Below, piece after piece: positions 4,681-53,667 of a DNA stretch of 64,000 bases (the stretch's first letter is position 1; each line of letters opens with the position of its first letter). The position numbers and the translations under genes are program-made. A model generated the notes under the pieces. The model had not been told where the DNA came from and did no database searches. It saw only the letters and a program-made list of their open reading frames with translations. This stretch comes from Lacticaseibacillus rhamnosus (GTDB taxonomy: Bacteria > Bacillota > Bacilli > Lactobacillales > Lactobacillaceae), in the NCBI RefSeq assembly GCF_900636965.1, contig NZ_LR134331.1, positions 744,001-808,000 on the forward strand, read 5' to 3'.

Positions 4681-4968
4681 TACACTCCGGTTTCTAAGCG
4701 GCCCTGTTCACGCTCACTTTCTATAACGCGTTCACCGGCGCAGGGGTCTGCGTGTAAGGACCTCAGCCGCAATGGCCAAAGCCCGGCCATCACGTCTGAG
4801 GCCGCTTACACTCCGACCCCTAAGCGCGCCGGTTCACGCTCACTTTCCATAACGCGCTCCCCGGCGCAGGAGTCTGCGTGTAAGGACCTCGAACGCAATG
4901 GCCAAAGCCCGGCCATTCCGCCCGAGGCCACTTACACTCCGACTCCTAAGCGCGCCGGCTCGCGCTCA
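4681..4968 (+). repeat. Palindromic repeat array A (two units plus a solo arm)
   Basis: Two tandem copies of the window's long palindrome, at about 4726-4841 and 4851-4968, preceded by a lone right arm at 4681-4716. Each unit is an imperfect hairpin: outer CCGGCGC/GCGCCGG, then a variable heptamer (CAGGGGTC with GACCCCT; AGGAGTC with GACTCCT), GTGTAAG/CTTACAC, a second variable stem, and an ATGGCC/GGCCAT apex closing on AAAGCCC. The units are joined by CACTTTC. The array lies in the transcribed leader between the T-box terminator and the Shine-Dalgarno (4978-4984). The stretch 4476-4680 shows nothing I recognise. Confidence 0.9.
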
Positions 4969-4990
4969 CTTTCTTTTAGGAGGGTTTCAC

Positions 4991-6124
4991 ATGACAGAAG
5001 AAGTTCAAACCAAAGCCCCTTTTCGTGCTGATTTAGTTGGTAGTTTGCTGCGTCCGGAGCGGTTGAAGGTTGCTCATCAGCAGCTTGGGATCGGTGAGAT
5101 TCAGCAGGATCAGGAGCTGGCGATTCAGCATGAAGCCATCAAACATATTGTTAAAAAGCAAGTCGAACTCGGGTTTAATGCCGTTACTGATGGTGAATTC
5201 TCGCGGCGTTATTGGCACCTAGACTTTTTCTGGGGCCTGAATGGTTTCGAAAAGGATGATGCATGGAAGTATGAACGGGACTTTAAAGGTGGTATCAACG
5301 CTGCTGCCAATGTTCATCTTGCCGGTAAGGTTGGTTTCAATCCCGATCATCCCTTCTTTGCCGCCTTTAACTATCTCAAGAGCATTGTGCCTGCCGGGGT
5401 CTTGCCGAAGCAAACGATTCCTAGTCCAGCGCTGTTGTTTAGGGATCATCGCAGCGATAACTGGTCGAAGTACTATGCTTCTTTTGATGATTATTTAGCT
5501 GACGTGGTGCAAGCATACGTGGCAACTATTGAGCACTTTTATACTTTGGGTGTCCGTTACTTGCAGATTGATGATACGAATTGGGCTTATCTGATTCAAA
5601 ACCTAAAAGATACAGAGAACGACCCGAAACGACACCAGCATTTTGTCGACTTTGCCAAGCTGGCGCATCAGGTCATTAAAGCAGTGTTAGTTCGATTACC
5701 TGAAGATTTGACCGTAACTTCGCACATTTGCCGCGGAAATTTCCAGTCGACTTTCTTATTCTCGGGCGGCTATCAGTATGTTGCTGATGAAATTGGCGAC
5801 TTGCCTTATGACGGATTGTTCCTTGAGTATGACAGTCAGCGTGCCGGTTCGTTTGAGCCATTACCGCAGCTGTGGCAAGGCGATACCAATAAGCGGATTG
5901 TGTTAGGGTTGATTACGTCGAAGTTTCCGGAGTTAGAAGACGAGGAAAAAGTGATTGAACGTATCCATGCTGCGACTGCTTATGTGCCACTGAGCAACCT
6001 GGCTTTGTCCACCCAATGTGGTTTTGCGTCAACTGAAGAAGGCAACAAGCTGACCGAAGATGATCAATGGGCGAAGTTGGCCTTGGTTCAGCGTATTGCG
6101 CATCGGGTTTGGGAAGATGCTTAA
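4991..6124 (+). CDS. MetE-like cobalamin-independent methionine synthase family protein (YxjG/YxjH type)
   Basis: Short MetE-related methyltransferase of 377 residues, equivalent to the catalytic C-terminal barrel of MetE (about 750 residues) without the N-terminal half. The N-terminus FRADLVGSLLRPERL is typical of YxjG/YxjH. Candidate zinc ligands are the His and Cys of TSHICRGNF and the Cys of STQCGFAS. It probably transfers a methyl group to homocysteine; the methyl donor of these short forms is not settled. The start at 4991 is preceded by AGGAGGG; the upstream in-frame extension is repeat sequence. Control is by the methionine T-box. luxS, whose product yields homocysteine, lies just downstream. 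Confidence 0.9.
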   Translation: MTEEVQTKAPFRADLVGSLLRPERLKVAHQQLGIGEIQQDQELAIQHEAIKHIVKKQVELGFNAVTDGEFSRRYWHLDFFWGLNGFEKDDAWKYERDFKGGINAAANVHLAGKVGFNPDHPFFAAFNYLKSIVPAGVLPKQTIPSPALLFRDHRSDNWSKYYASFDDYLADVVQAYVATIEHFYTLGVRYLQIDDTNWAYLIQNLKDTENDPKRHQHFVDFAKLAHQVIKAVLVRLPEDLTVTSHICRGNFQSTFLFSGGYQYVADEIGDLPYDGLFLEYDSQRAGSFEPLPQLWQGDTNKRIVLGLITSKFPELEDEEKVIERIHAATAYVPLSNLALSTQCGFASTEEGNKLTEDDQWAKLALVQRIAHRVWEDA

Positions 6125-6193
6125 CAGAAAGCCGGCTAGACTCAAAATTTTTTGACCCTATTTGGCATGATGTCATGTCATTCCCAGATTTTT

Positions 6194-6222
6194 TTCACAC
6201 CGGTGGGATTGTGTTATATGAT
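6194..6222 (+). promoter_or_regulatory. luxS promoter
   Basis: TTCACA (6194-6199) and TATGAT (6217-6222) with 17-base spacing lie 37 bases upstream of luxS. luxS can therefore be transcribed independently of the T-box-controlled gene before it. Confidence 0.65.
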
Positions 6223-6258
6223 GAGTAGGTAAGCTATTGAGAAGGAGATCCTTAATTT

Positions 6259-6732
6259 ATGGCAAAAGTTGAAAGCTTTACGTTAGATCACACTGCAGTT
6301 AAGGCGCCTTATGTCCGGTTAATTACCACCGAAAAGGGCCCGAATGGCGATGAAATTTCTAACTATGATTTACGCTTGGTTCAGCCAAACACCGCTGCGA
6401 TTGATACTGCCGGGTTGCATACAATTGAACACTTGTTGGCATCATTATTGCGCGATCGCATGGATGGCGTGATTGATTGTTCACCGTTTGGCTGCCGCAC
6501 CGGCTTTCACTTGATTACCTGGGGAACACACAGCACCACGGAAGTCGCCAAAGCGCTGAAGTCCAGCCTTGAAGCGATTGCTAACGATATTACCTGGGAT
6601 GATGTACCCGGTGTTGACATCAAGAGTTGTGGCAACTACAAAGATCACAGCCTGTTTTCTGCTAAAGAGTGGGCAAAGTTGATTTTGAGTCGCGGCATTT
6701 CTAACGATCCATTTACCCGGCAGGTTGTCTAA
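6259..6732 (+). CDS. luxS: S-ribosylhomocysteine lyase
   Basis: Cleaves S-ribosylhomocysteine to homocysteine and the AI-2 precursor DPD in the activated methyl cycle; a cytosolic metal-dependent homodimer. All key residues are present: H54 and H58 of the HTIEH metal motif, C124 (SCGNYKDHS) as third ligand, E57, and the catalytic Cys C79 in FGCRTGFH. Length is 157 residues, standard for Firmicutes. The ribosome binding site AAGGAGA precedes the ATG. It directly follows the MetE-like gene, which can use the homocysteine made here. A terminator follows. Confidence 0.98.
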
Positions 6733-6756
6733 TCTAACGAGCATTGATTAGAACCA

Positions 6757-6804
6757 AAAATGGCACTGCACAAGTTCGAATAGCGAACCTAGCAGCGCCA
6801 TTTT
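6757..6804. terminator. Bidirectional terminator between luxS and the VTT protein gene
   Basis: Hairpin AAAATGGC / GCCATTTT with inner helices CTGC/GCAG and GTTCG/CGAAC, and A/T runs on both flanks. It serves the convergent genes on either side. Confidence 0.8.
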
Positions 6805-6817
6805 CATGTCACCATGT

Positions 6818-7414
6818 TTAACTGAATAGATCAATCAACCACCGGCCACCATATAGCAAACTCATGCTATAGGCGAAGATGGTAATGGGTTTGCCGAGTA
6901 TAATAATCCAGAAGAACCTGGTGAAGGTCATTTTGGTGAGACCGGCGAGCAAACATAGCACATCATCTGGGGCAACCGGCAGCACAATGGCAAGCGTAAA
7001 CAGGTGATCAAACCGGGTCTGATTCTTAGTGTAGCCGATGTATTTTTCATAAGTTTTTTCCGAAATTAAATACGTCAGCAGGGGCTTGCCAAAACGGCGG
7101 GCAAGAAAAAAGTTAATAAAAGATCCGATCGCGATGCCGATGTAGTTGTAGAGAAAACCAAACCACGGGCCAAAAAGAATCACACCTGCAGCGGTACTGA
7201 TGCCGCCTGGAATGATGGGAATCACGACCTGGATAACTTGAATGACAACGAAAAATAAAGCTCCGGTTAAGCCGAGTCGGGCGATGTAACTTTGTAAAAC
7301 CTTGACATCAGAAAGAATCCCTAGATCGTACCAATAAATAGTGACGATGACTAAAGCGATCACAACGATCAGGGTGGCAAGATTGATCAAATGGCGGACA
7401 TTTTTTGGAGTCAT
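6818..7414 (-). CDS. TVP38/TMEM64 (VTT/DedA-related) membrane protein
   Basis: A 198-residue polytopic protein with an N-terminal helix (residues 9-27) and a VTT-domain core. The family signature is visible as IIPGGISTAAGVILFGPWFGFLY followed by GSFINFFLARRFGK, where the re-entrant loop and arginine-rich segment of DedA-like proteins lie. Relatives are lipid scramblases or transporters (VMP1/TMEM41B in eukaryotes, DedA and PetA/UptA in bacteria). The exact substrate here is unknown. The start at 7414 has only a modest GAGG upstream. Transcribed opposite to the ruvAB operon, with the divergent promoters in the short gap 7415-7505. Confidence 0.85.
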   Translation of the reverse strand: MTPKNVRHLINLATLIVVIALVIVTIYWYDLGILSDVKVLQSYIARLGLTGALFFVVIQVIQVVIPIIPGGISTAAGVILFGPWFGFLYNYIGIAIGSFINFFLARRFGKPLLTYLISEKTYEKYIGYTKNQTRFDHLFTLAIVLPVAPDDVLCLLAGLTKMTFTRFFWIIILGKPITIFAYSMSLLYGGRWLIDLFS

Positions 7415-7505
7415 AACGTTAAGCCTCAGAACGATTTATCATCAAGAAAAGTTCTATGCTACAATGAGTCAAGCGTACCAAACATATGTACTGAATGGAG
7501 AGCTT

Positions 7506-8102
7506 ATGTACGAATACTTTGAAGGCACAATTCAGGCCGTAACGCCGGCGTACATTGTCATTGATGTCAATGGCATCGGATTTCGCCTGCTGGTAGCCAA
7601 TCCATACGATTTTGAAGCGGGAAAGCAGACCCGGATTTATGTGCAACTCATCATCCGCGAAAATGATCAAACACTTTACGGATTTGAAACGGCAGCGGAT
7701 AAACGAACTTTTAACCAGTTGTTATCCGTCACCGGCATTGGTCCGAAATCAGCGTTGGCAATTTTGGCAAATGTTTCAAGTGGTGGCCTAGCAACTGCCA
7801 TTGCCCAAGATGATGTTAAATTTTTGACCAAGTTTCCGGGCATCGGTAAGAAGACGGCCGCTCAGATTATCCTGGATCTAAAAGGCAAAATTACGACCGA
7901 TGCTCAACCGGCTGCCGCAACGATCATGCCGACCGCCGATCAAGTAGCGCCGGAGCTGGCAGATGCCTTGGCTGCACTGGTTGCCTTAGGATACACCCAA
8001 CGCGCGGTTGATGGCATTACCGATGCTTTGAAAGCCTTTGACGCCACGACGACCGATGCTTATCTGCGTGAAGGTTTACGCTTGTTGAGCGGACGAGCAT
8101 AA
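7506..8102 (+). CDS. ruvA: Holliday junction branch migration protein RuvA
   Basis: Tetrameric DNA-binding subunit that holds the four-way junction for RuvB. 198 residues: N-terminal OB fold (MYEYFEGTIQAVTPAYIVID), two helix-hairpin-helix motifs (SVTGIGPKSALAIL and KFPGIGKKTAAQII), and a C-terminal domain (ALAALVALGYTQRAVDGIT) that contacts RuvB. The start at 7506 follows a GGAGAG; an upstream in-frame extension to 7341 overlaps the divergent gene and lacks family similarity. First gene of ruvA-ruvB-queA. Confidence 0.97.
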   Translation: MYEYFEGTIQAVTPAYIVIDVNGIGFRLLVANPYDFEAGKQTRIYVQLIIRENDQTLYGFETAADKRTFNQLLSVTGIGPKSALAILANVSSGGLATAIAQDDVKFLTKFPGIGKKTAAQIILDLKGKITTDAQPAAATIMPTADQVAPELADALAALVALGYTQRAVDGITDALKAFDATTTDAYLREGLRLLSGRA

Positions 8103-8177
8103 CGTTGATTATACTGGAGCAGCAGGACATCGACAACGGTAAGACTTTTTCAGACAATATAGAAGGGGCGTGAGTTT

Positions 8178-9224: not shown

Positions 9225-9233
9225 ATGAAATGA

Positions 9234-10319: not shown

Positions 10320-10383
10320 TGATCGATCATGTGACCCGCTACTGTCTGCGGGTAGTTTACGCCATTGATCGTCTCTGAAGGTA

Positions 10384-10800: not shown

Positions 10801-11952
<1,152 letters not shown>

Positions 11953-16134: not shown

Positions 16135-17622
16135 ATGCCAGAAGAATCGCGCGCTGTGATCATTATTTTCGGTGGGTCAGGAGATTTAGCTTCACGAAAG
16201 CTTTATCCTGCATTGTTCAATCTTTATCGCCGCGGAGTGCTTGCTGAACACTTTGCAGTTATCGGAACTGCCCGCCGACCATGGAGCGACGAACATTATC
16301 ACGAAGTCGTAGCAAATGCTGTTGCAGGTGCACATGCGGATGCTAAACAGGTGCACGCCTTTGCCCAGCACTTTTTCTATCAAAGTCATGATGTAACCGA
16401 TGCAGATCATTACATCACCTTGAAAAATCTTGCGGCAAAGCTGGATGATCAGTTTGCAGTCGGCGGTAATCGCGTCTTTTATATGGCTATGGCACCGGAC
16501 TTTTTTGAAACCATTGCCAGTCATCTTAAGTCAGAACATCTGTTGACGGATGCCGGATTCAATCGTTTGATTATTGAAAAACCGTTTGGACATGATTATG
16601 CTAGCGCCAAAGCATTGAACGATTCGCTGACCGCGACGTTTGATGATGATCAGATTTTTCGAATTGACCATTATCTTGGCAAGGAAATGATCCAGAACCT
16701 ACTGGCGTTCCGGTTTGATAATGCCATTTTTGAGGGTGTCTGGAACAAAGACTTTATTGACAACATTCAGATCACGTTATCTGAAGCTGTCGGAGTAGAG
16801 GAACGTGCCGGCTATTATGAAAAGGCGGGTGCGTTGCGCGACATGGTTCAAAATCACGTGATGCAAGTATTGTCTTACTTGACTATGCCCAAGCCTAAGT
16901 CGTTTACGGCAACCGATATTTTAACGGAAAAAGATAAGGTGTTTGCTGCGTTAAGGCCTTATGATCTGGCAGCAGCAAAGGCTAACTTTGTGCAGGCACA
17001 ATATGTGGCGGCGCAAATAGATGGCAAAACGGTTCCTGGTTATCGCCAAGAGGAAGGGGTCGCACCGGATTCGCAAACGCCAACTTTTGTCGCAGGCAAG
17101 ATTTTGTTGGATATGCCACAATGGCAAGGCGTACCGATTTATATTCGAACCGGCAAGCGACTGACCCGTAAATCGACTCAAATCACGTTAACGTTCAAAC
17201 CGGTGACCGCGCCGTTATTTAGTCAAGCAGAAGCAAGCCGCCCGGATAGCCTGACGATTTACATTGAACCGAGCGAAGGCTATTCCCTGCAGCTTAACGG
17301 TAAAGCATTGGGAACGGGTTTTGACGTTGAGCCGGATGAGTTGCGCTATCGCCACGACCCGACAGCGGCTGCAGCAGCTCCGGAGGCCTATGAACGTTTA
17401 ATCAGCAATGTGCTGGAAGGCGATCAGACAAACTTCACGCATTGGTCTGAATTATCCGCTTCATGGCGATTTATTGATGCCATTCAGGCGGCATGGTCCC
17501 AGGAAACAACAATGCCAACTTATCCAGCGGCAACAATGGGACCAAAGGCGGCATTTGACTTACTTGAACGCGATGGCCGCGAATGGTTCTGGCAACCACG
17601 GCGCGTCCAGCTAGCTGATTGA
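16135..17622 (+). CDS. zwf: Glucose-6-phosphate 1-dehydrogenase
   Basis: First oxidative step of the pentose phosphate pathway: glucose-6-phosphate plus NADP+ to 6-phosphogluconolactone. 495 residues. The dinucleotide-binding motif is IIFGGSGDLASRKLYPALF near the N-terminus. The active-site signature RIDHYLGKEMIQNLL carries the catalytic His, and the substrate Lys lies in IIEKPFGHDY. The ATG at 16135 has a weak upstream site (GGGAAAGCAGGG). Followed by palindromic array B rather than a clear intrinsic terminator. Confidence 0.97.
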   Translation: MPEESRAVIIIFGGSGDLASRKLYPALFNLYRRGVLAEHFAVIGTARRPWSDEHYHEVVANAVAGAHADAKQVHAFAQHFFYQSHDVTDADHYITLKNLAAKLDDQFAVGGNRVFYMAMAPDFFETIASHLKSEHLLTDAGFNRLIIEKPFGHDYASAKALNDSLTATFDDDQIFRIDHYLGKEMIQNLLAFRFDNAIFEGVWNKDFIDNIQITLSEAVGVEERAGYYEKAGALRDMVQNHVMQVLSYLTMPKPKSFTATDILTEKDKVFAALRPYDLAAAKANFVQAQYVAAQIDGKTVPGYRQEEGVAPDSQTPTFVAGKILLDMPQWQGVPIYIRTGKRLTRKSTQITLTFKPVTAPLFSQAEASRPDSLTIYIEPSEGYSLQLNGKALGTGFDVEPDELRYRHDPTAAAAAPEAYERLISNVLEGDQTNFTHWSELSASWRFIDAIQAAWSQETTMPTYPAATMGPKAAFDLLERDGREWFWQPRRVQLAD

Positions 17623-17682
17623 TGATGATACTGAACAAAGGGACGGAGACCAATAAAAGGTCAAAGCCTCTTTTTTTTAAGT

Positions 17683-18085
17683 GAGCGCGAGCCGGCGCGT
17701 TTAGAAGTCGGAGTGTAAGCGGCCTTAAGCGTGATGGCCGGGCTTTGGCCATTGCGCTTAAAGTCCTTACACGCAGACTTCTGCGCCGGGGAGCGCGTTA
17801 TGGAGCAGAAAAGCCAGCGCGGTTAGAAGTCGGAGTGTAAGCGGCCTTAAGCGTGATGGCCGGTCTTTGGCCATTGCGCTTAAGGTCCTTACACGCAGAC
17901 TTCTGCGCTGGGGAGCGCGTTATGGAGCAGAAAAGCCAGCGCGGTTAGAAGTCGGAGTGTAAGTGGCCTTAAGCGTGATGGCCGATCTTTGGCCATTGCG
18001 ACCGAGGTCCTTACACTCCGGCTCCTGCGCTGGGGGAGCGCGTTATGGAGCGGAAAAGCCGACTTCTGCGCAGGAAAGCGTGTTA
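17683..18085 (-). repeat. Palindromic repeat array B (three units and a degenerate tail, reversed)
   Basis: Three tandem copies of the same palindrome as array A, in opposite orientation: about 17683-17800, 17812-17922 and 17934-18045, then a decayed arm at 18058-18085. Units are joined by GTTATGGAGC-type spacers. Units 1 and 2 carry GAAGTC paired with GACTTC and CTTAAGCG paired with CGCTTAA. Unit 3 has non-matching arms (GAAGTC against GGCTCC; CTTAAGCG against GACCGAGG), as if two different units had recombined. It fills most of the zwf-dinB intergenic region (17623-18151). Confidence 0.9.
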
Positions 18086-18151
18086 TGAAGCGCAAGTCCG
18101 ACTTCAAGATTTGTTGAAACGTGTCAAGGTTCCGGGGAGGTGAGCAAACAC

Positions 18152-19255: not shown

Positions 19256-19399
19256 AGAGGGATGTGCTGTCTAAAAATGGTTCCTAAGCGTATTAGCTTA
19301 GTTAGAGTTATGTGTATGGCAAACAAAGAGGCATCAGTTTAGACGATTCCAGCAGCAGTGCGATAGGTCACCTTGTTCGAATATTAGGATAGAAAGCAA

Positions 19400-19481
19400 G
19401 AGCTGGCGGAGCGGTGGCGGGCTCAGTGGTGCCCACCACTCTAGCTACGCGGTCGCCAGCCTGCCACCGCGGAGCCAGCTC
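19400..19481. repeat. 82-nt GC-rich hairpin downstream of dinB, unrelated to arrays A-F
   Basis: Outer arms GAGCTGGC / GCCAGCTC (8 bp), a 3x3 internal loop (GGA on both sides), then a 13-bp helix GCGGTGGCGGGCT / AGCCTGCCACCGC with one G-T pair. The interior contains a smaller AGTGGT / ACCACT hairpin. There is no T-run, so it is not a normal terminator. I see only one copy in this window. It differs in sequence from the six-array family. The flanks 19256-19399 and 19482-19530 hold nothing I can name. Confidence 0.8.
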
Positions 19482-19534: not shown

Positions 19535-19795
19535 CGCCGGTTCACGCTCTGTTGAAACGCGTTCGCCAGCCCAGAAACCTGCACATAAGGACCTTGGTCG
19601 CAATGGCCAAAGAGCGGCCATCACGCCCAAGGCCGCTTATGCTCCGGTTTCTAACCGGGCTGGCTCACGCTCTGCTGAAACGCGTTCACCGGCGCAGGAG
19701 TCGGAGTGTAAGGACCTCGAACGCAATGGCCAAAGCCCGGCCATCACGCCCGAGGCCGCTTACACTCCGACTCCTAAGCGCGCCGGTTCACGCTC
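19535..19795 (+). repeat. Palindromic repeat array C (two units)
   Basis: A lone right-arm end (19535-19551) is followed by units at about 19556-19671 and 19679-19795. Unit 1 has CCAGCCC with GGGCTGG, AGAAACC with GGTTTCT, CATAAG with CTTATG and CCTTGG with CCAAGG. Unit 2 has CCGGCGC with GCGCCGG and AGGAGTC with GACTCCT. Neighbouring units thus have different stems that each stay self-complementary. The array ends 26 bases before the -10 of the next gene. Confidence 0.9.
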
Positions 19796-19854: not shown

Positions 19855-21168
19855 ATGGCGACAAAGCATGAGCAGATTTTGGATTATATTGCAAATTTGG
19901 CGGTTGGTAAGAAAATATCGGTGCGTTCGATTGCCAAGCATTTGAAGGTGAGCGAAGGTACTGCTTATCGTGCGATTAAGGAAGCGGAAAATACTGGTTT
20001 TGTTTCGACAATTGCACGGGTTGGTACCATTCGAATTGAGCAAAAACCGTTAAATCCAATTGAATCCGTGACGTTTAAAACCTTGGTTGATTTGATTGAC
20101 GCTAAAGTTTTAGGCGGGCAGGCTGGTATGGACAAAAAACTCGATAAGTTTGTGATCGGGGCCATGACACCGGCTGCTATGCGTCCATACATTACGCGTA
20201 ATTCGTTATTAATTGTTGGTAACCGTGAAGACGCTCAGCGATTAGCACTTGAAGACGGAGCAGCGGTTCTGATTACCGGGGGCTTTGAAACAAGTTCCGC
20301 GATTATTGCGCTTGCTGATGATCAGCAATTACCGGTTTTACAGACGGCTTATGATACATTTACAGTTGCAACCATGATTAACCGCGCGTTGTCTGATCAG
20401 GCGATTAAGCAAGACATCTTAACCGTTGCCGCTATTTATACGCCCCTTTCACAAATCGAAACGATTGGCGTGGAGGCAACCGTTGGCGATTACCTGGCAA
20501 TGACAGATCCCCATTATCCGCTCCCGGTTGTGACGCGAAACGGACGCTTGGTCGGCTTAATGCGTCCGGCACTGGCAGCTGGCAAGAAACCGACTGTGCC
20601 AATCGAACGGCTAATGCAAAAAGATCCGCAAACTGTCAAACCATATTTAAGCGTGACGACTGTCGGCCACACGATGCAGGATAATGGCATGAACGCAATG
20701 CCGGTTGTCGATGACAGTTGGAATCTTTTAGGTATCGTCACGCGCAATGCTGTCTTTTCCAGCTTAACCGGGATTGCCCATAGCCGTGAACTGACCAATA
20801 CGATTGCTGACCAGGTGAGTGCACAGTTAACGGCTATTACCCCGCAAAAGCCATATGGTGGTGGGTTTGAGCTCAAAACAGTGCCGGCGATGACCAATAC
20901 GCTGGGGACGATGAGTTTTGGCGTCCTTGCTGAAGCCATTAATAGTTGCACGACTCGCTACTTGCACGATACCGGGCGCCGGAATGTTTTGGTTGAGGGC
21001 GTTAACCTGACCACTTTTCGACCGGTTCAGTTGGAGAGTATTGTGACTGTTTTATTGCGGGTGCTTGAGCTAACGAGACACGATGCGACTTTGGACGTGG
21101 ACGTTCTCAGTGATGGCGTTCAGGTTGCCAAGGCAGTTGTGACTTGTCAGCTATTAGAAAGGAATTGA
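19855..21168 (+). CDS. HTH-DRTGG-CBS-hotdog regulatory protein (YtoI-like)
   Basis: A 437-residue protein with four recognisable modules. These are an N-terminal helix-turn-helix (residues about 5-60, KISVRSIAKHLKVSEGTAYRAIKEAENTG), a DRTGG domain (about 80-185), a CBS pair (about 195-310, ending NAMPVVDDSWNLLGIVTRNAVF) and a C-terminal hotdog/thioesterase-like domain (about 335-437). This matches B. subtilis YtoI, whose gene also neighbours nrnA (ytqI). CBS pairs usually bind adenine nucleotides, so a nucleotide-sensing regulator coupled to the downstream nanoRNase/pAp phosphatase is plausible (inference). Six bases separate it from the next gene. Confidence 0.88.
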   Translation: MATKHEQILDYIANLAVGKKISVRSIAKHLKVSEGTAYRAIKEAENTGFVSTIARVGTIRIEQKPLNPIESVTFKTLVDLIDAKVLGGQAGMDKKLDKFVIGAMTPAAMRPYITRNSLLIVGNREDAQRLALEDGAAVLITGGFETSSAIIALADDQQLPVLQTAYDTFTVATMINRALSDQAIKQDILTVAAIYTPLSQIETIGVEATVGDYLAMTDPHYPLPVVTRNGRLVGLMRPALAAGKKPTVPIERLMQKDPQTVKPYLSVTTVGHTMQDNGMNAMPVVDDSWNLLGIVTRNAVFSSLTGIAHSRELTNTIADQVSAQLTAITPQKPYGGGFELKTVPAMTNTLGTMSFGVLAEAINSCTTRYLHDTGRRNVLVEGVNLTTFRPVQLESIVTVLLRVLELTRHDATLDVDVLSDGVQVAKAVVTCQLLERN

Positions 21169-23487: not shown

Positions 23488-24423
23488 ATGGCCGTAAACG
23501 AGTTGACGTTACCGACATGGAATAGCTTGGATGAAAAAAGACAACGATTTATTTTCCAACAGTTGACCCGCTACTTTTTGAGTCCGTTACTGACAGTTGA
23601 TGAGATTCGACCGGTGACTGCTACTTTTTATGGGCAGACGTTGCATACTTTTGAAGCCATGATCGGCGGCGAATGGGTGCGGTTGATTCCGGGGATGGCC
23701 CAAGTTACCCTAGGTTTTCATGCGCAGCAGCAAGAACAACTGGCTTCTTACATGCAGCAGAGCGGTTTGACTGTAACGGACTTAACGCAGGCTTTGTCGC
23801 CGCAACGGGAAGTCGCTATGCCGCCTATGCTGGTTGCGACTAAAGCTACGCCGGCAAATGAGGAGATCTTAGGGCGGATTAGCCTGACGACTCGTATTTT
23901 CAAGGGTAATCACATGCGCTATGCTGCGATTCGCGCGCAGGTGTTGCGCTTGTTGGATCGGCAAGGCAGCCTTGATCCTTTTGCCCAAAGCGGTTGGGCG
24001 GCGAGCTTGACCAGTGGCAACATTAAATTACGACTTGCCAGCGCTCATCATTATCAAGTGAGCATCGTCAAGTCCTGGCAAAAAGCGGATTTGATCAAGT
24101 CGCTGAGTTTTTTTGGCTTTCGATTGCCGACTCAGGATCAGTATGAATATTTACAAAGCGGCGGCCGGCAAAGTCTGTTTGCGTTTGGCAATACCTTGCC
24201 GCCGCAGTTACCGCGTTATTTGCCGAATCCATTTGGTTTGACGATTCCGGTTGAACGTGCGGGTAGTGAACTGATTGCGGAAGATATTCAAAAAAGCACA
24301 GTGTTACCCGCACAGCCGTCAGCAAAAGCAGCGTTGGCATTGTCGCCGTTTTATCAGGCAGAAGGTGCCGATGACCTGACCGTTGCCAGTTATCGGCGGG
24401 TTGCGACAGTTACGGTTAATTAA
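23488..24423 (+). CDS. Unrecognised protein with a degenerate FGE/SUMF1-like C-terminal half
   Basis: 311 residues, starting 4 bases after the helicase and therefore co-transcribed. I do not recognise the N-terminal half (residues 1-150). The C-terminal half resembles formylglycine-generating-enzyme folds: FFGFRLPTQDQYEYLQSGG matches the usual RLPTEAEWEYAARGG block, followed by LFAFGNTLP (for YPWGN), PNPFGLTIP (for NxFGLYDM) and a final SYRRVATVTV (for GFR). The catalytic WEW block and Cys residues of true FGE are absent (SELIAEDIQ instead), so it is probably a non-catalytic, binding version. Start codon ATG has GAGGGTGAG upstream. Function unknown. Confidence 0.75.
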   Translation: MAVNELTLPTWNSLDEKRQRFIFQQLTRYFLSPLLTVDEIRPVTATFYGQTLHTFEAMIGGEWVRLIPGMAQVTLGFHAQQQEQLASYMQQSGLTVTDLTQALSPQREVAMPPMLVATKATPANEEILGRISLTTRIFKGNHMRYAAIRAQVLRLLDRQGSLDPFAQSGWAASLTSGNIKLRLASAHHYQVSIVKSWQKADLIKSLSFFGFRLPTQDQYEYLQSGGRQSLFAFGNTLPPQLPRYLPNPFGLTIPVERAGSELIAEDIQKSTVLPAQPSAKAALALSPFYQAEGADDLTVASYRRVATVTVN

Positions 24424-24484
24424 GAAGGTAGACATCTGGTGTCTTGAAACATGACGAATAGCCGGTTGTTTTTTCAATAACGAG

Positions 24485-24513
24485 TTGACCTGGTTTTTCA
24501 GAAAAGCTATAAT
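24485..24513 (+). promoter_or_regulatory. Promoter of the alaS T-box transcript
   Basis: TTGACC (24485-24490) and TATAAT (24508-24513) with a 17-base spacer, close to the vegetative consensus. Confidence 0.85.
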
Positions 24514-24517
24514 TGGG

Positions 24518-24706
24518 ACTCGTTAGGATATGTGTCGACCCCTGAGTGAGACAGAAACAGCCACATACGTTGAGAGCGGCTGCACCAGGCTAAGATATGC
24601 TCCCTAATATCAGGTGAACGAATATTAATGAAGTGGTAATGACTCGCATCATTGCAACCAAGGTGGTACCGCGTGCAAGCGCCCTTGGCAGCAATGGTGC
24701 TTTTTA
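24518..24706 (+). promoter_or_regulatory. T-box leader controlling alaS
   Basis: The acceptor-binding sequence AACCAAGGTGGTACCGCG lies at 24656-24673 and is followed by a terminator (AAGCGCC 24677-24683, GGTGCTT 24696-24702, T-run). At the base of stem I, TTAGG (24523-24527) can pair with CCTAA (24602-24606). The triplet just 5' of that pairing is GCT (24599-24601), an alanine codon, consistent with the downstream synthetase. Charged/uncharged tRNA-Ala would set read-through. Confidence 0.88.
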
Positions 24707-24721
24707 TGTTGATAAGGGTGT

Positions 24722-25100
24722 GCGGTTCACGTTAACGCGTTTGTTGGCGCAGGGATCTGCGTATAAGGACCTTGGTCGCAATGGCCAAGAGCGGGCCATC
24801 ACGCCTAAGGCCGCTTACACTCCGGTTTCTAAGCGGCCCTGTTCACGCTCACTTTCCATAACGCGCTCCCCGGCGCAGAAGTCTGCGTGTAAGGACCTCG
24901 AACGCGATGGCCAAGCCCAGGCCATCCCGCCCGAGGCCGCTTACACTCCGACTTCTAACCGCGCCGGCTCGCGCTCACGTTAACGCGCTCCCCAGCGCAG
25001 GGATCTGCGTATAAGGACCTTGGTCGCAATGGCCAAAGCCCGGCCATCACGCCCAAGGCCACTTACACTCCGATCCCTACCCGCGCTGGCTCGCGCTCAC
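24722..25100 (+). repeat. Palindromic repeat array D (three units) in the alaS leader
   Basis: A short leading arm remnant (24722-24731) then units at about 24733-24850, 24858-24976 and 24979-25100. Unit 1 is mismatched (left AGGGATC against right GGTTTCT), unit 2 is matched (AGAAGTC with GACTTCT), and unit 3 is matched (AGGGATC with GATCCCT; CCTTGG with CCAAGG; CCAGCGC with GCGCTGG). The array lies between the T-box terminator and the alaS Shine-Dalgarno (25109-25114), exactly as array A does for the MetE-like gene. The junction CACTTTCTTTTAGGAGG is identical at both sites. Confidence 0.9.
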
Positions 25101-25121
25101 TTTCTTTTAGGAGGATATGTC

Positions 25122-27767
25122 ATGAAAAAAATGTCAAGCGGCGAGATTCGCCAAATGTTTTTGGATTTTTTCAAGAGTAAAGGTCATGCAGTTGAACCTA
25201 GTGCTTCGTTGATTCCGGTTGATGATCCCACTTTGTTGTGGATTAACTCAGGCGTTGCAACTTTAAAGAAGTATTTTGACGGGTCGGTTATTCCAGACAA
25301 CCCGCGTATTACCAATGCTCAAAAGTCGATTCGGACCAATGATATTGAACTTGTCGGGAAGACAGCGCGCCATCTGACATTTTTTGAAATGCTGGGCAAT
25401 TTCTCGGTTGGCGATTATTTCAAAAAAGAAGTCATTCCGTGGGCGTGGGAGTTATTGACGAGCCCTAAGTGGTTTGATTTTGATCCTAAGCGTTTGTATG
25501 TCACGGTTTATCCTAAAGACAAGGGCACCAAGGAACTTTGGCGCAAAGTCGGGGTTGCAGATGATCATATTGTTGAGGCTGAGGATAACTTCTGGGATAT
25601 CGGCGAAGGTCCATCTGGTCCGGATTCCGAAATCTTTTATGATCGTGGCCAGTCCTTTAACAATGTGGCTGAGGATGATCCGGAAAACTATCCTGGTGGC
25701 GAGAATTCACGTTATGTTGAAATCTGGAACATCGTCTTTTCCGAGCTTAACCATTTGCCGGATGGCCGGTTTGTTGAGCAGCCGCATAAGAACATTGATA
25801 CTGGCATGGGGCTTGAACGCTTAGTCGCGGTTATTCAAGGCACGCCAACTATTTTTGAAACTGATTTATTCATGCCGATTATCAAGGCAACCGAAAAGAT
25901 GAGTGCAGGCAAGCGTTACGGGGCCAGTGCGCAAGATGATGTGTCCTTTAAGATTATTGCCGATCATGCGCGGACGGTAACCTTTGCGATTGGTGACGGT
26001 GCACTGCCAAGCAATGAAGGCCGCGGCTATGTTTTACGGCGGTTGATTCGGCGGGCGGTTTTAAACGGTAAGAAGCTCGGTATCAATCATGACTTTTTGT
26101 ATCAACTCGTGCCGGTTGTCGGCGAGATCATGAAGAGCTATTATCCACAGATTCTGGCCAACCAGCCATTTATTCAAAAAGTCATTGAATCCGAAGAAGC
26201 CCGCTTCCGGCAAACGCTTGACGCTGGGGTTAATCTGTTGAATCAAATTGTTGCTGAACTGAAGCAAAACGGAAAAAAAGAAATTTCCGGTGCGGATGCA
26301 TTTAAATTGTTTGATACGTATGGCTTCCCGGTTGAAATGACGAATGAATATGCTGAAGATGAAGGCTTGAAAGTCGATATGGCCGGCTTCAAAAAGAACA
26401 TGGCGGCACAGCGCGATCGGGCTCGCAAAGCACGGGGTGATCGGCAGTCAATGGGCAGTCAAGATACCGTTTTGATGGACATTACCACGCCAAGCAAGTT
26501 CACCGGGTGGACCGAGTTGGATCATAAACATGCCACGTTACAGGCGATTGTTGTGGATGATCAGCTTCAGGATGAAGTCAGCACCGGGCAAGCCCAACTG
26601 ATTTTTGACGAAACGCCTTTTTATGCCGAAATGGGCGGTCAGGTTGCTGATCACGGGGTTATTAAAGCTCAGGATGGCACCGTATTGGCCGAAGTGACGG
26701 ATGTCCAGCATGCACCCAATGGCCAAAATCTGCATACCGTTACCGTTAAAGGCAAACTGACAAAGGGCCAACCATATTGGCTCAGCGTTGATCGTTTGCG
26801 GCGTAAGAAAGTTTCACTTAACCATACGGCCACTCATTTGCTGGATCAGGCGTTGCGGGATGTTTTAGGCGAGCATACCCATCAAGCCGGTTCGTTAGTC
26901 GAGCCTGATTATTTACGGTTTGATTTCACTAATTTCGGTCAGGTAACGCCAAAACAACTGCGCGAAGTTGAAACGATTGTTAATCAGAAGATCTGGGATG
27001 CTTTGCCGATTACGTGGAAAGAGATGCCGATTGCCGAAGCCAAGAAGCTTGGTGCGATTGCGATGTTTGGGGATAAATACGGTGATGTCGTGCGAATTGT
27101 TTCCATCGGCGATTACAATAAGGAATTTGACGGCGGTACCCACCCAACCAATACCAATGCGCTAGGTCTGTTCAAGATCACCAGCGAATCCGGTATTGGC
27201 GCAGGGGTTCGCCGGGTTGAAGCAGTCACGTCCAAGGAAGCTTATGAATACCTGACCCAACAGCAGGACTGGCTTAAGGAAACGGCTGATCATTTGAAAA
27301 TAGATCAAGTGAAGAATGTGCCAAGCAAGGTCACTCAACTCCAAGCTGATCTGAAAACCGAACAAAAAACGGTGGCAGGATTGCAAGCTAAGTTGGCAGC
27401 CCAAGCAGCAGCCGGCATTTTTGACCACGCTGAAACAGTAGGCGGATTTAAACTGATTGACAAGCAGGTTCAGGTAGCCGGAATGAATGAATTACGACAA
27501 CTTGCCGATGAGTGGAAAACAAAGCAGGCTTCGGACATATTAGTGTTAGGTACCGAAGCAAATGGCAAGGCAAACTTGTTAGTAGCGGCTAATGCCAATG
27601 CCAATCAAGCCGGTTTGAAAGCAGGCGACCTGATCAAGGCCATTGCGCCAAAAGTAGGCGGCGGTGGCGGTGGTCGTCCGGATATGGCCCAAGCAGGCGG
27701 TAAGAAGCCAGCTGGCATTCCGGCAGCACTGGCAGAAGCCAAAAACGTGATCGGCCAGCATGCATAA
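25122..27767 (+). CDS. alaS: Alanyl-tRNA synthetase
   Basis: Charges tRNA-Ala. 881 residues with the full architecture: class II catalytic core (about 1-240), tRNA-recognition helices (to about 440), editing domain (about 550-720) and C-Ala domain with the glycine-rich [16 protein letters not shown] near the end. The editing site has the first zinc motif HTATHLL, but the second motif reads [10 protein letters not shown], so the usual zinc-ligand Cys of CGGTH is Asp. The ATG at 25122 follows AGGAGG; the frame upstream is repeat sequence. Regulated by a T-box; followed by a terminator. Confidence 0.97.
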
Positions 27768-43353: not shown

Positions 43354-43359
43354 TTGATT

Positions 43360-45435: not shown

Positions 45436-45898
45436 GAAACGCGTTTACGGGATCGGAAATCTGGAAATCTGCATGTAAGGACCTTGGATGTATTGACCAC
45501 AACCCGGTCACCACGCTCAAGGCCACTTATATTCTGGTTTACGCCCATAACGCGCTCGCCAGCCCAGAAACCTGCGTGTAAGGACCTTGAGACTAAATGG
45601 CCATAGCCCAGCCATTTAGTCTCAAGGCCACTTATATTCTGGTTTACGCCCATAACGCGCTCCCCGGCGCAGAAGTCTGCGTGTAAGGACCTTAAGCGCA
45701 ATGGCCAAAGCCCGGCCATCACGCTTAAGGCCACTTACACTCCGACTTCTAACCGCGCCGGCTCGCGCTCATGCTCTGAAACGCGTTCGCCAGCCCAGAA
45801 ACCTGCGTGTAAGGACCTTGAGACTAAATGGCCATAGCCCAGCCATTTAGTCTCAAGGCCACTTACACTCCGGTTTCTAACCGGGCTGGCTCACGCTC
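45436..45898 (+). repeat. Palindromic repeat array E (four units)
   Basis: Units at about 45436-45545 (decayed), 45548-45650 (outer right arm missing), 45653-45770 and 45779-45898. Units 2 and 4 carry a distinctive apex, CCTTGAGACTAAATGGC paired with GCCATTTAGTCTCAAGG, a perfect 17-base helix. Unit 3 has CCTTAAGCG / CGCTTAAGG and AGAAGTC / GACTTCT. Unit 4 has AGAAACC / GGTTTCT and CCAGCCC / GGGCTGG. The array stops 11 bases before the -35 of the DUF948 gene. Between 45244 and 45435 I see nothing else. Confidence 0.9.
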
Positions 45899-45908
45899 TT
45901 TAAATCTT

Positions 45909-45937
45909 TTGCACGCGTGTTGTGACGATGTTATGAT
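45909..45937 (+). promoter_or_regulatory. Promoter of the DUF948-ytxH genes
   Basis: TTGCAC (45909-45914) and TATGAT (45932-45937) with 17-base spacing, 38 bases before the start codon and just 3' of array E. Confidence 0.7.
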
Positions 45938-47690: not shown

Positions 47691-47743
47691 CTAGATTGAC
47701 ATGTAACCCTCGATTTCAAAAGCGCAACAATTAACGTCACAAG

Positions 47744-50203: not shown

Positions 50204-50252
50204 GCAGAAGTAACACGATATTCTGGCGGCATGCCAAGCAAGCATAGACGAT

Positions 50253-50300
50253 AAAAAGCAGATGAATCAGCGCATATATGGCGCGGTTCATCTGCTTTTT
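50253..50300. terminator. Bidirectional terminator, ccpA / class A PBP
   Basis: AAAAAGCAGATGAA / TTCATCTGCTTTTT arms with an inner CGC / GCG helix, between convergent genes. Confidence 0.93.
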
Positions 50301-50364
50301 GGTTTGTTGGTATGATAAAGATCAATGCTGCCATCCGCGCATTGCTTAGACGGTAGTTAATCAG

Positions 50365-53109
50365 TTAATGGCCGGTACCTGTATTAGTTGACGGGGTTTG
50401 CGGAGTAGTCGTGGTACCGCCTGTTGTCGGTGCAGAACTGGTGGTGGCTGCTTCAGTGCCAGTACCGCCACCGGTTGTGCCATTGTTGCCGCCAGTACCG
50501 GTAGTTTGCGGCTCACTCGGTTGATTTTCCGAAGTGCCTTGTTGGTTTTGCTGACTCGATGGCACGGTTACGCTAGGTGTACGACTGCTAGAAACTGTTG
50601 CTGATGAAGGGGTTTCTGTCGTAATCGGCGTTTCCTGATGTTCTTTTTTAGCCTCGGTGGAGCGGCCGTTAGCATCTGACACTTGGCCATAACCATTGCT
50701 TTTGCCATCAAGATAATCGTAGAACAGCTGATAATTATCTTTACTGCCGCCAATTGCAAACTCGGCCTTGGCGGTTGGCTCCCAGTCATTATAAAGGCTG
50801 GTCACAGTTGAGCCGCCAGTACGGTAGGTGTGCCCGTTAAACGAAAGACTTGCAGCCGGCTGACCGGTTTGTTTATCAACGGTGACGGATTTGACGGTGC
50901 TCGGTCGACTTAGTTTCTTATCCGCTTTGAATTTTTTAGGAATAGTATGATATACCGCATTGGCCAGTTTTGCCCAATATGCTTCATTGGTCATCGAGCT
51001 ATTTTCCGTGAGGGTATAGTTCGTGCCATTACTATTATCGTACCCCATCCAGCTGGCAATCGTGATGCCCGGAGTTGAGCCGATGAACCAAATATCGCGA
51101 AAATCGTTACTGGTCCCGGTTTTACCAATCAGATTATCGGTATTAAATCGCAACTGATAGTTCAGGCTTTCCGCAGTTCCGGATGCAACCACGTTTTTGA
51201 GCATCTGGTTCATAATGTAGTTGGTGCCTTTAGAGAAAACCTTGGTCTTTTTGACTTGATGGCGATAAACGGCATGGCCTGAGGGATCGACAATTTCGGA
51301 AATGACGTAGGCGGGAACATGTTCACCTTGATTGGCGAATGTTGAAAAGGCGCTGGCTTGCTCCTTAACGTCGACCCCGTAATCAGTACCTCCAAGTGCC
51401 AGACCAAGTTGACTATAGTCGTTGTCGGTCAGGGTGTTGATCCCCATCTTTTCCATGTAGGCTTTGACGTTTACGGATGGCTTGATATGTTTATATAGAT
51501 TAACAGCAGGAATGTTATAGGATTGTGCCAGTGCTTCAGTGGCAGGGATAAAGCGGTTTTGGATCTGGCCGCCATAGTCAGTGACGCTGTAATTGTTCCC
51601 GAGATTGGTTTTGAAATCAGCTAAGGCAGTTTGCGAGCCGATAATTTTTTGGTCAATCGCAGGGGCATAAACCAAAAGTGGCTTGATCGTCGAACCGGGG
51701 GAACGGAGGGTATAAATATGGTTGAGTTCGCCGGTAACGCCGCCAACAAAGCCGAGAACGGCCCCGGTTTGATTATCAAGGACAACCGATCCGTTTTGAA
51801 CCGGGTATTTAACGGTTTCCGTTTCACCGGTTTTCGGATTAATCTGACTACTGGTATAAGTTTGACCGAACGTATCACGGGTTGCGCGCATGACAAATTG
51901 CATGCGATCATAAACATCTTTGTCAATCGTGCTCTTAATGCGATAGTTTTTGGACGCAAAAAGATCACCTGCCTGTCGGAGATAATCATTGTTTAAAGCG
52001 CTATCTTTTGCGAGCTCTGCTGCAGAATGGCCATCGCTTTTTGCTAATTTCTCGGCTAACAATGATTTGGCTTCACTTAGTACCATGTTATAGACATAAC
52101 CATACTCATCATCATCCTGGTCTGCTTTTTCTGGCTGGAGAAAGGCACCCTTTAGATCAAATGATTTGGCAGCAACATATTGACGATGGCTGATAACGCC
52201 AGCCCGGTACATGCGGAAGAGGACGGTTTGTTGGCGATTGATACCGGCTTTGAGACTGGTTTTCAATTTACCATCGGCCGTGTAAGGGGTATAGACAAAT
52301 GGACTTTGCGGCAGGCCAGCGATGAAAGCCGCTTCCGGCAAGTTAACTTCCTTAGCCGAAACCCCAAACAGTCCTTGCGCCGCTGCTTCAACTCCGGCAA
52401 TATTTTGGCCTTTGTTATTACGACCAAGCGTAGCAACATTGAGATAGGTTGCCAGAATGGTGTTTTTACTGAAGTGATTGTTCAAGCGCCGGGCCAGCAT
52501 AATTTCAGCAGCCTTACGCTTAAAGGTTGTCTCCGAATTTAAAAACATCATTTTGACCACTTGCTGCGTTAAAGTTGACCCACCTGTCTGACTGCCCATA
52601 CCGGTTAAGTCGGAGAAGAACGCACGGATAACCGCCTTAGGAACAATGCCGTTGTGGCGATAGAAGTCTTCATCTTCAGTGGCGATAATCGCCTTGGTGA
52701 GCCATGGCGACATCTCATTGAGGTTGACTTTGGTTGAGTACAGGTCGCTTTTAACATCGCTAAGCTTGACGTTGTGGGCAAAATACATGCTGGAAGTGCG
52801 GCTGGTATTGGACAACGTTGCTTTCATAGCAGTTTCAGTTGGAATTGGCGTTGCGTCAATAATCGACACAAAATAGCCGCCAAACAAGCCGAGGCCAAAC
52901 ACGACAGCAATGCCTAAAACGCCTAATAAATAGTAAACAGTTGTTTTGATGCTTTGAAGTGTGACGTTGCCATAATAGACAACGGCAGCTTTACCCGTTA
53001 GTTGTTGATTGGTATCTGCTTTGGAATCGGGATGCCGGGTCACGAATTGCGTGAACCAACGACAAAATCGAGTCCCAAGCGTCTTGACCCGATTGACGAA
53101 CTTTTTCAA
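50365..53109 (-). CDS. pbp2A: Class A penicillin-binding protein (PBP2A-like)
   Basis: Bifunctional transglycosylase/transpeptidase for peptidoglycan, 914 residues. A cytoplasmic basic N-terminus precedes the anchor helix (about residues 56-80). The GT51 domain has ATEDEDFYRHNG with catalytic E145, and GGSTLTQQVVKMMF. The transpeptidase motifs are S473 in SPGSTIKP, S530 in AQSYNIP and K663 in IGKTGTS. The last 90 residues are a Ser/Thr/Gly/Gln-rich tail (TGTGGNNGTTGGGTG), likely wall-embedded. It resembles S. pneumoniae PBP2A more than PBP1A. Located next to ccpA, as in other lactobacilli. Confidence 0.94.
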   Translation of the reverse strand: MKKFVNRVKTLGTRFCRWFTQFVTRHPDSKADTNQQLTGKAAVVYYGNVTLQSIKTTVYYLLGVLGIAVVFGLGLFGGYFVSIIDATPIPTETAMKATLSNTSRTSSMYFAHNVKLSDVKSDLYSTKVNLNEMSPWLTKAIIATEDEDFYRHNGIVPKAVIRAFFSDLTGMGSQTGGSTLTQQVVKMMFLNSETTFKRKAAEIMLARRLNNHFSKNTILATYLNVATLGRNNKGQNIAGVEAAAQGLFGVSAKEVNLPEAAFIAGLPQSPFVYTPYTADGKLKTSLKAGINRQQTVLFRMYRAGVISHRQYVAAKSFDLKGAFLQPEKADQDDDEYGYVYNMVLSEAKSLLAEKLAKSDGHSAAELAKDSALNNDYLRQAGDLFASKNYRIKSTIDKDVYDRMQFVMRATRDTFGQTYTSSQINPKTGETETVKYPVQNGSVVLDNQTGAVLGFVGGVTGELNHIYTLRSPGSTIKPLLVYAPAIDQKIIGSQTALADFKTNLGNNYSVTDYGGQIQNRFIPATEALAQSYNIPAVNLYKHIKPSVNVKAYMEKMGINTLTDNDYSQLGLALGGTDYGVDVKEQASAFSTFANQGEHVPAYVISEIVDPSGHAVYRHQVKKTKVFSKGTNYIMNQMLKNVVASGTAESLNYQLRFNTDNLIGKTGTSNDFRDIWFIGSTPGITIASWMGYDNSNGTNYTLTENSSMTNEAYWAKLANAVYHTIPKKFKADKKLSRPSTVKSVTVDKQTGQPAASLSFNGHTYRTGGSTVTSLYNDWEPTAKAEFAIGGSKDNYQLFYDYLDGKSNGYGQVSDANGRSTEAKKEHQETPITTETPSSATVSSSRTPSVTVPSSQQNQQGTSENQPSEPQTTGTGGNNGTTGGGTGTEAATTSSAPTTGGTTTTPQTPSTNTGTGH

Positions 53110-53270
53110 GTGCTTGTCCCACCTTAAATTTTGGTCTAGTACGCCTTAGTATACCTTAAAAACAGGGCGGATTCTAATGCTGTAAATGGGGAGTGCCAAG
53201 TGAGGTGTTTGGAGGTTTGAATCTAAGGAGCGTTAGGCTTGGGGTGGTGGTTTTTTAGGGGGAGGTTTAC

Positions 53271-53667
53271 GCGTGCGGGCTGGTTCACGCTCTGCTCTAA
53301 AACGCGTTCACCAGCCCAGAAACCTGCACATAAGGACCTTGAGCGCAATGGCCAAGCCCGGGCCATCACGCTCAAGGCCACTTATGTTCCGGTTTCTAAG
53401 CGGGCTGGTTCACGCTCTGGTCTGAAACGCGTTCACAGTCGCAGAAATCTACGTGTAAGGACCTCAGACGCAATGGCCAAAGCCCGGCCATCACGTCTGA
53501 GGCCACTTACACTCCGATTTCTAAGCGCGCCGGTTCACGCTCTGGTCTGAAACGCGTTCACCGGCGCAGGAGTCTGCGTGTAAGGACCTGGGGCGCAATG
53601 GCCAAAGCCCAGCCATCACGTCCCAGGCCGCTTACACTCCGACTCCTAAGCGCGCCGGTTCACGCTC
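53271..53667 (+). repeat. Palindromic repeat array F (three units)
   Basis: A right-arm remnant (53271-53294) then units at about 53300-53418, 53424-53541 and 53550-53667. Matched arm pairs: unit 1 AGAAACC / GGTTTCT, CACATAAG / CTTATGTT and CCTTGAGCG / CGCTCAAGG; unit 2 AGAAATC / GATTTCT and CCTCAGACG / CGTCTGAGG; unit 3 AGGAGTC / GACTCCT and CCTGGGGCG / CGTCCCAGG. These are the clearest compensatory sets in the window. The array fills the region between the PBP promoter and the HAD gene. Bases 53110-53270 contain the PBP upstream region only. Confidence 0.92.

Follow-up and report, generated by a model that had tools for sequence, protein, structure and literature searches.

The 64,000-nt stretch of Lacticaseibacillus rhamnosus DNA analysed here (the window; contig NZ_LR134331.1, positions 744001-808000 of a genome consisting of a single contig of 2,988,387 bp, labelled G000) was found to carry six arrays of a long imperfect palindrome. 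Full units of this family are 112-121 nt long and form a strand-asymmetric hairpin with an unpaired foot, a bulge in the 3' arm and a loop. The units are probably a non-autonomous mobile DNA hairpin resembling repetitive extragenic palindromic (REP) sequences, with new units being added at the 3' ends of arrays.

Hairpin arrays in the window

An nhmmer search with one unit identified 17 units (15 full units of 117-119 nt and two short units) and one additional half unit. This agrees with the seventeen copies reported by an earlier sequence-only reading of the same DNA, and all six arrays were found where that reading had placed them, at 4.7, 17.7, 19.5, 24.7, 45.4 and 53.3 kb. The array at 17.7 kb lies on the minus strand and the other five on the plus strand. 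The sequence GTAAGGACC occurs 12 times in the window compared with an expected 0.23.

The 4.7 kb array begins with the 3' half of an older unit which has lost its 5' half (approximately 4678-4717, from nhmmer and the sequence), followed by full units at 4725-4841 and 4851-4967, the second of which runs at its 3' end into AGGAGG and the ATG (4991) of a Meth_synt_2 gene. At 17.7 kb there are three full units on the minus strand (17683-17799, 17805-17921 and 17927-18043). The 3' end of the first lies 4 nt from a T8 tract (17671-17678) after a G6PD gene (16135-17622), while the third, which is the 5'-most full unit of the array, has one arm changed to CGGAG; a DinB-type polymerase gene (IMS) lies at 18140. 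The 19.5 kb array has full units at 19556-19672 and 19679-19795, the latter having a nearly perfect stem (-76.4 kcal/mol) and lying upstream of a DRTGG/CBS gene at 19855. The usual TGC/CTCC mismatch is lost in units 17927-18043 and 19679-19795.

The array at 24.7 kb consists of a hybrid unit (24734-24850), with arms from two variants and a fold unlike the others, and full units at 24860-24976 and 24982-25098, the last of which runs at its 3' end into AGGAGG and the ATG (25122) of alaS. The 45.4 kb array opens with two short, 3'-truncated units with a period of ~103 nt, in which the outer 3' arm is missing; the first (45438-45545) is degenerate and shares its tail with the second (45549-45650). 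These are followed by full units at 45654-45770 and 45780-45898 (119 nt), a promoter-like site (45908-45937) and then a DUF948 gene. Finally, three full units (53301-53417, 53426-53542 and 53551-53667) make up the 53.3 kb array, with the third being upstream of a HAD hydrolase gene.

Pairing and covariation in the window units

All 17 window units were placed in alignment A1, and the 15 full units (A2, the two short units having been dropped) were used for the structure test and for a first structure model, R1. Standard pairs made up 94.1% of the pair cells in A2 compared with 87.9% after shuffling, a value not reached in any of 500 shuffles. Changes on both sides were found in 17 of the 43 stem pairs (10.6 shuffled) and in 55 cells (21.5 shuffled), again with 0 of 500 shuffles as high in each case. 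When partners were slid by 1-3 columns, pairing dropped to 27-41%. Further pair types were not above the shuffles (29 vs. 29.8). The covarying segments named in the sequence-only reading are present and the arms of one copy usually match as it described, with the exception of the hybrid unit 24734-24850, whose outer arms are unmatched. Its remark that no known family was recognised is in keeping with the Rfam search, which gave no match at gathering score in the window. For nine relatives and the region 24300-25200 the Rfam matches were sub-threshold only, those on units being to microRNA-type hairpins.

Structure and distribution in the Bacilli

A further alignment (A5) of 30 units from five species groups was used to build a second structure model, R2. 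RNAalifold, which the earlier reading had proposed as a check, predicted 30 pairs in A5, of which 26 have changes on both sides. In this cross-species set 96.1% of the cells pair (68.7% shuffled) and the covariation score is 0.731 compared with 0.213 shuffled (0/500), with slid partners pairing in only 30-48%. Further pair types were again not above the shuffles (56 vs. 53.6). The invariant letters of A5 include CA opposite TAANCG.

Searching the genus with a structure model, also proposed earlier, gave R2 matches in 29 of 30 genomes (E 1e-4). Every tally given here includes the window genome itself, match counts per genome are lower bounds, and stricter filters applied to any sample exceeding 40 genomes. 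R2 matched 68 of 151 genomes of the family (22 of 40 genera), 30 of 295 of the order (E 1e-6), 16 of 299 of the class and two of 348 of the phylum, these two being the window genome and one other of the same class. An initial limit to the genus, given by R1 (20/25 genus genomes, 0/16 others), was overturned by R2.

Stem letters differ greatly between species while the geometry usually stays; the genomes G003, G004, G019 and G020 have their own unit versions with strongly diverged stems. Among 73 distinct units from outside the window genome, 59 have TAANCG, 70 a 3'-side bulge of 4-5 nt, 62 a 7-nt loop and 64 a loop containing AAA, and in 64 of the 73 the first such bulge lies 16 nt from the 3' end (hand tally). 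As these units were found by R1 and R2, this geometry is partly built in. Among the Lactobacillaceae members seen, most have AACG as the foot, with ATCG, AATG, GTCG, GACA and ATGG also occurring. Members from other orders mostly have GTCC, GTCT or ATCC; they often begin with GTCCAGCT or GTCTAGCT and end with CGCTTTT.

Genome census and polarity of the arrays

A census was carried out with nhmmer on the window and 114 stretches around 160 listed places in the window genome, so that its counts are lower bounds. At least 270 units (fragments included) were found in 126 arrays, none of which mixes strands. The matches listed for this genome were 80 with BLAST and at least 150 with R1, and further R2 places lie outside the census stretches (e.g., 1310057 and 1500787). 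Of the 270 units, 199 were classed as full, 59 end by model position 100 and nine score below 30 bits.

The arrays have a marked polarity. Of the 94 arrays with more than one unit, 93 end in a full unit (the remaining one being cut by the stretch end) and 49 begin with one. A 3'-truncated unit stands first in 32 arrays and last in one, again the array cut by the stretch end; in only two arrays, that array included, does a truncated unit come after a full one. The first unit scores below the last in 80 of the 94. The short units are without the outer 3' arm, with their tail being common within an array (14 arrays, by eye). Fragments of 3' arms were found within 40 nt upstream of 28 arrays and downstream of three, those of 5' arms upstream of four and downstream of three.

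Pairing follows the same direction. For these statistics 197 full units were used, 73 of the 270 being dropped as partial or off-length. Watson-Crick cells amount to 97.3% in last units, 95.0% in middle units, 95.0% in single units and 90.7% in first units. In the 47 arrays with both ends full, the first unit has more mismatches in 34 and the last in six, with seven ties (p 8e-6). On the basis of this polarity of truncation, pairing and arm fragments, the 3' end is read as the young end of the array. The outermost pair itself covaries (T-A 156, A-T 23 and other 12 of 191), with 179 being Watson-Crick compared with 139.9 expected. Linkers between units are 2-10 nt (n = 68). The bias in replication strand was not significant, with 72 of 126 arrays co-oriented (p 0.13, assuming the origin at base 1 and the terminus halfway).

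Sources of new units

The median number of differing sites is 20 between adjacent array mates (73 pairs) and 19 between units of different arrays, compared with six for the nearest relative anywhere; 14% of the adjacent mates are within 10 differences. Most full units with a full array mate have their nearest relative outside their own array. As array mates are as different as units of other arrays, most array growth would be by copies from elsewhere. Tandem duplication as the main source of the arrays is ruled out by these distances, leaving it a minority, local role. A relative elsewhere within four differences was found for 35% of last units and 8% of first units.

Units at related sites

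The six window sites were read by eye in relatives, with one genome per species being compared (G001 at four sites only, G010 at all but 17.7 kb). At all six, the relatives differ in the number, strand or form of the units. The forms seen at 4.7 kb lie on the opposite strand beside the upstream T-tract, with a mini hairpin in G005, a unit plus a mini in G010 and a remnant in G023. Minis occur in G005 and G023 at 17.7 kb, and a core-deleted mini in G023 at 19.5 kb, where G005 and G010 have nothing. At 24.7 kb only a 5' remnant is present in G005, one unit in G010 and one on the other strand in G023. The 45.4 kb site carries arrays in G005, G010 and G023, with a similar 3' junction and different units, and opposite-strand units are found at 53.3 kb in G005 and G010, the one in G010 being a hybrid. 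G001 has no units at the four sites read and 25 R2 matches elsewhere. The core-deleted mini hairpins (G005 and G023 at 17.7 kb, G023 at 19.5 kb, G005 and G010 at 4.7 kb) are ~40 nt long with only the outer stem kept.

Fourteen plasmid records match the element (nine Pediococcus, five Lacticaseibacillus). In a phosphotransferase system (PTS) operon, the listed matches to four L. plantarum plasmids show a gap, and the two plasmids examined both keep a scar between end repeats. The same operon has one unit in P. inopinatus and L. paracasei pMGB0734-3, whereas the unit in L. paracasei pMGB0245-2 is another; the flanks of the two L. paracasei plasmids are 99.4% (894 nt) and 98.6% (1076 nt) identical. 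Judged from these sequences, the change is one of whole-unit replacement and not of stepwise compensation. Genomes of two families were also observed to share the same unit together with the same 45-nt 3' flank (L239, L252 and L256; G278, G145 and G100), which suggests a shared plasmid or a transferred gene. The named matches to an exact core pattern are all L. zeae or L. chiayiensis. Carriage by phages was rejected, as no match was found in a phage collection and one exact pattern was unmatched in viral contigs.

Genomic setting of the arrays

Neighbouring genes were taken from our own calling of open reading frames and their orientation (left, right) is given relative to the array. Of the 126 arrays, 51 are of type ++, 34 of type --, 25 of type -+ and 10 of type +-, with six unassigned (++ vs. 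--, p 0.082). The median left and right gaps are 101 and 24 nt for ++, 195 and 18 nt for -+, 116.5 and 69 nt for --, and 28.5 and 99.5 nt for +-, so that the rule of a closer 3' gene fails in the +- class.

In 36 of the 126 arrays a loose pattern of ribosome site plus start codon begins no more than 35 nt from the 3' end, compared with five reading away from the 5' end (p 8e-8) and nine on the same strand within the 60 nt at the 5' side. For 45 arrays a run of five or more A lies at most 15 nt from the 3' end, compared with three having runs of five or more T at the 5' end (p 2e-12); T runs of this length lie within 15 nt of the 3' end in 15 arrays. The AT content is 73.8% in the first 10 nt of the 3' flank, 57.4% in those of the 5' flank and 52.1% in all fetched DNA. 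The 3' array ends tend to adjoin a ribosome site or an A/T-tract, some of which are terminator- or promoter-like. The sequence-only reading held that no T-run explains the palindrome; this stands, although A/T-tracts do adjoin many arrays across the genome.

Proposed mode of spread

The reading of the units as a REP-like mobile hairpin would require a protein or process which recognises the folded single strand by its foot, bulge and loop. This recogniser would copy the strand and add the copy either to an array, at its 3' end, or to a boundary rich in A and T. Pairing would be selected when the copy is made, and resident copies would then decay, lose parts between short end repeats or be overwritten by other copies.

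Two candidate movers were searched for, and no mover was found. Y1_Tnp (PF01797) has no match in the window genome; 13 of the 30 genus genomes have it, and its presence does not follow the R2 counts. It is absent in nine genomes having 23 to at least 123 R2 matches (G003, G004, G005, G006, G019, G020, G023, G043 and G044), while G012, the one genus genome without an R2 match, has one Y1 match. Reverse transcriptase (PF00078) was found in 11 of the 30 and was rejected as the mover, being absent in G000, G005 and G023.

Several observations weigh against the mobile hairpin. In the nine genus genomes with at least 90 R2 matches, the window genome included, Y1_Tnp is absent from six and reverse transcriptase from five. 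The sites compared gave no example of a virgin site cleanly entered by a unit and flanked by a target duplication, and losses can also account for the differences between species. Duplication or conversion does occur locally to some extent, as the nearest relative lies in the unit's own array for 21.6 of the 132 full units with a full array mate compared with 0.94 by chance. Mismatches in ++ arrays comprise 75 G.U and 69 A.C, those in -- arrays 30 and 54 (p 0.019), a bias following transcription which could reflect RNA or transcription-linked mutation. Placement at the 3' end could likewise reflect function, and the poor pairing at the 5' end could point to a function served by the 3' unit alone; the latter is countered by single units, which pair at 95.0% and not at 97.3%.

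A wider version of the mobile hairpin reading, in which the units belong to a class-wide lineage of single-stranded DNA hairpins in Bacilli that is read by shape (foot, TAANCG bulge and AAA loop) and not by stem letters, moved by an enzyme other than a Y1 transposase and laid down singly as ordered 3' additions at transcription/translation boundaries, each array thereby recording its insertions in order, is put forward as a tentative possibility, somewhat short of an even chance.

Alternative explanations

The strongest alternative, to which about one chance in four might be given, has no dedicated mover. Hairpins would stall replication and undergo breakage or mis-priming, and repair through template switching or ectopic conversion from other copies would rewrite units, add them at the 3' side and delete them, with covariation arising because a paired haplotype is copied at once. 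Much of the data fits this, including the unit replacement within fixed flanks on the PTS operon plasmids, the hybrid units (24734 and G010 at 53.3 kb), the deletion scars between short direct repeats, the array-specific tails of short units, the excess of nearest relatives within the own array and the absence of Y1_Tnp and reverse transcriptase from the window genome. New sites are less easily explained in this way, as are the regular 3' polarity and the class-wide recurrence of the foot, the bulge and the loop, and the bias in replication direction was not significant (72/126, p 0.13).

It is less likely that the units are functional RNA hairpins at gene boundaries, acting as stabilisers, RNase III sites or ribosome-site insulators. 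The 3' ends near a start-site pattern (36/126) and A/T-tracts, the surplus of ++ over -- arrays (51 vs. 34, p 0.082) and the G.U share which weakly follows transcription (p 0.019) would all suit such a role. An RNA hairpin under selection should favour G.U. However, among 8,063 cells of the 197 full units, non-Watson-Crick cells comprise 146 G.U, 182 A.C and 70 others (G.U vs. A.C, p 0.053), the cells sharing descent and the p values therefore being rough. In last units there are 25 G.U compared with 61 A.C. Counted as distinct mismatch states the figures are 34 G.U, 33 A.C and 44 others, for rare bases 28 G.U and 22 A.C, for private ones four and five, and across species 17 and 23 (hand count from the A5 pair table). 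As G.U is not commoner than A.C, the RNA reading is not favoured. Pairing also declines toward the 5' end and is equal in ++ (95.5%) and -- arrays (95.2%). As it falls with inferred age and is the same in the two orientations, the arms would match because matched copies spread, and the pairs look inherited at birth and not kept later. Private changes are about as common at paired sites (39 at 82) as at unpaired sites (20 at 35), so that stems are not clearly protected after insertion. The units further vary in number, strand and form between related species, and the window has no Rfam match at gathering score, with only sub-threshold microRNA-type hairpins on units.

These results bear on two claims of the sequence-only reading. 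It took the covariation to mean that the hairpin itself is kept; a real family with conserved structure is borne out, whereas the keeping of resident hairpins is unsupported, least of all as RNA. Of the forms it offered, RNA or cruciform DNA, a DNA hairpin fits better, as one needed for spreading, and RNA is disfavoured by the lack of a G.U excess.

That the units are strict REP sequences of a REP-associated tyrosine transposase (RAYT; Y1 HUH) appears improbable. According to the available part of one study, REP recognition depends on a foot tetranucleotide and a stem irregularity on one strand only, with the folded single strand being read (PMC8266576). The unpaired tetranucleotide foot and the strand-specific hairpin with a stem irregularity, the extragenic position and the species-specific versions are all shared with the hairpin described here. 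However, the window genome has no Y1_Tnp, which largely refutes this explanation for that genome, and the nine genomes named above with 23 to at least 123 R2 matches also lack it, while the R2-negative G012 has one match. The units are at least ~3 times longer than REP and GTAG is lacking.

Miniature inverted-repeat transposable elements of an ordinary DDE insertion sequence would also be short, palindromic, intergenic and of high copy number, but are the least probable source, as terminal letters vary strongly between species while pairing stays, unlike terminal repeats read as duplex, no target duplication was obvious by eye in the flanks of the census arrays, and the strand-asymmetric bulge and loop recur.

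Comparison with known repeat families

The closest resemblance is to REP/BIME with TnpA_REP (RAYT) and to REPINs, which in the source as available are likewise dispersed extragenic hairpins with an unpaired 4-nt foot, a stem irregularity and species-specific versions (PMC8266576). A strand-specific hairpin with a conserved irregularity appears to be common to both, given TAANCG in 59 of 73 units. The units are nevertheless 112-121 nt compared with 20-40 nt for REP, and the foot is mostly AACG in Lactobacillaceae and not GTAG, so that a GTAG/CGTC foot is not what was found. The arrays are direct and not alternating as in BIMEs, with truncated units at one end, and there is no Y1 transposase in the window genome to match RAYT.

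The end hairpins of IS200/IS605 and the integron attC sites are folded single-stranded DNA recognised by bulges and loops over stem letters alone. The likeness in recognition (partly described in the accessible text of PMC8266576) is set against the finding that neither a transposase gene nor a cassette was seen between units, although no search aimed at an integron integrase was made. BOX, RUP, ERIC, bcr1 and the stem-loop families of PMC2267715 are also repeated bacterial palindromes or stem-loops, many of them intergenic and some from Firmicutes, as far as the available text goes. The only lactobacillus family noted in the accessible part of that work is Lac-1 of L. johnsonii (PMC2267715), which differs from the present hairpin in being 231 nt long and in genes.

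Clustered regularly interspaced short palindromic repeats (CRISPR) also form direct arrays with polarity. Here the linkers are 2-10 nt and there are no spacers, while the units are ~117 nt and vary, with adjacent mates a median of 20 sites apart. In the available part of the report on L. casei KACC92338, five of the eight listed CRISPR repeats (evidence level 1) resemble the element by eye (PMC11464305); these entries are likely to be the hairpin element mis-annotated. No publication was recognised as describing the hairpin family in the literature searched, which was partial, most subscription journals being outside it; in the portions available of PMC12306157, PMC3733652 and PMC11109978 no lactobacillus terms were found.

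Other features beside the arrays

Promoter and terminator scans were made beside four window arrays. The promoter at 45.9 kb is backed by the scan, and no plus-strand promoter was detected after the 19.5 or 53.3 kb arrays, that at 19.5 kb being seen by eye only. The T8 tract at 17.67 kb was unscored by the terminator scan, and the remark on it is by eye. A different palindrome (GAGCTGGCGGAGCGGTGGCGGG...CTGCCACCGCGGAGCCAGCTC) lies at window positions 19385-19478, with similar pieces observed by eye in the 5' flanks of arrays at genome positions 1646609 and 2671378; it is perhaps a second dispersed hairpin family. Before alaS, a T-box leader (window 24500-24689, E 4e-6) scored 35.6 bits compared with a gathering score of 93, so that a default Rfam scan misses it. 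The hairpin array sits between this leader and the alaS ribosome site.

Significance

If the mobile hairpin reading is true, such an element is present in nearly all genomes sampled from the genus, in almost half of those from the family and in a few from other parts of the class, with copies per carrying genome ranging from one to at least 270, and in at least one published genome it seems to have been listed as CRISPR. It would also separate covariation due to RNA function from that due to the spread of paired copies and from conversion. Since the geometry recurs although stem letters are free to change, a recogniser is predicted, which could be looked for. As the arrays look time-ordered, they could be used to date insertions, and the placement of units beside ribosome sites and A/T-tracts would make effects on the expression of neighbouring genes testable.

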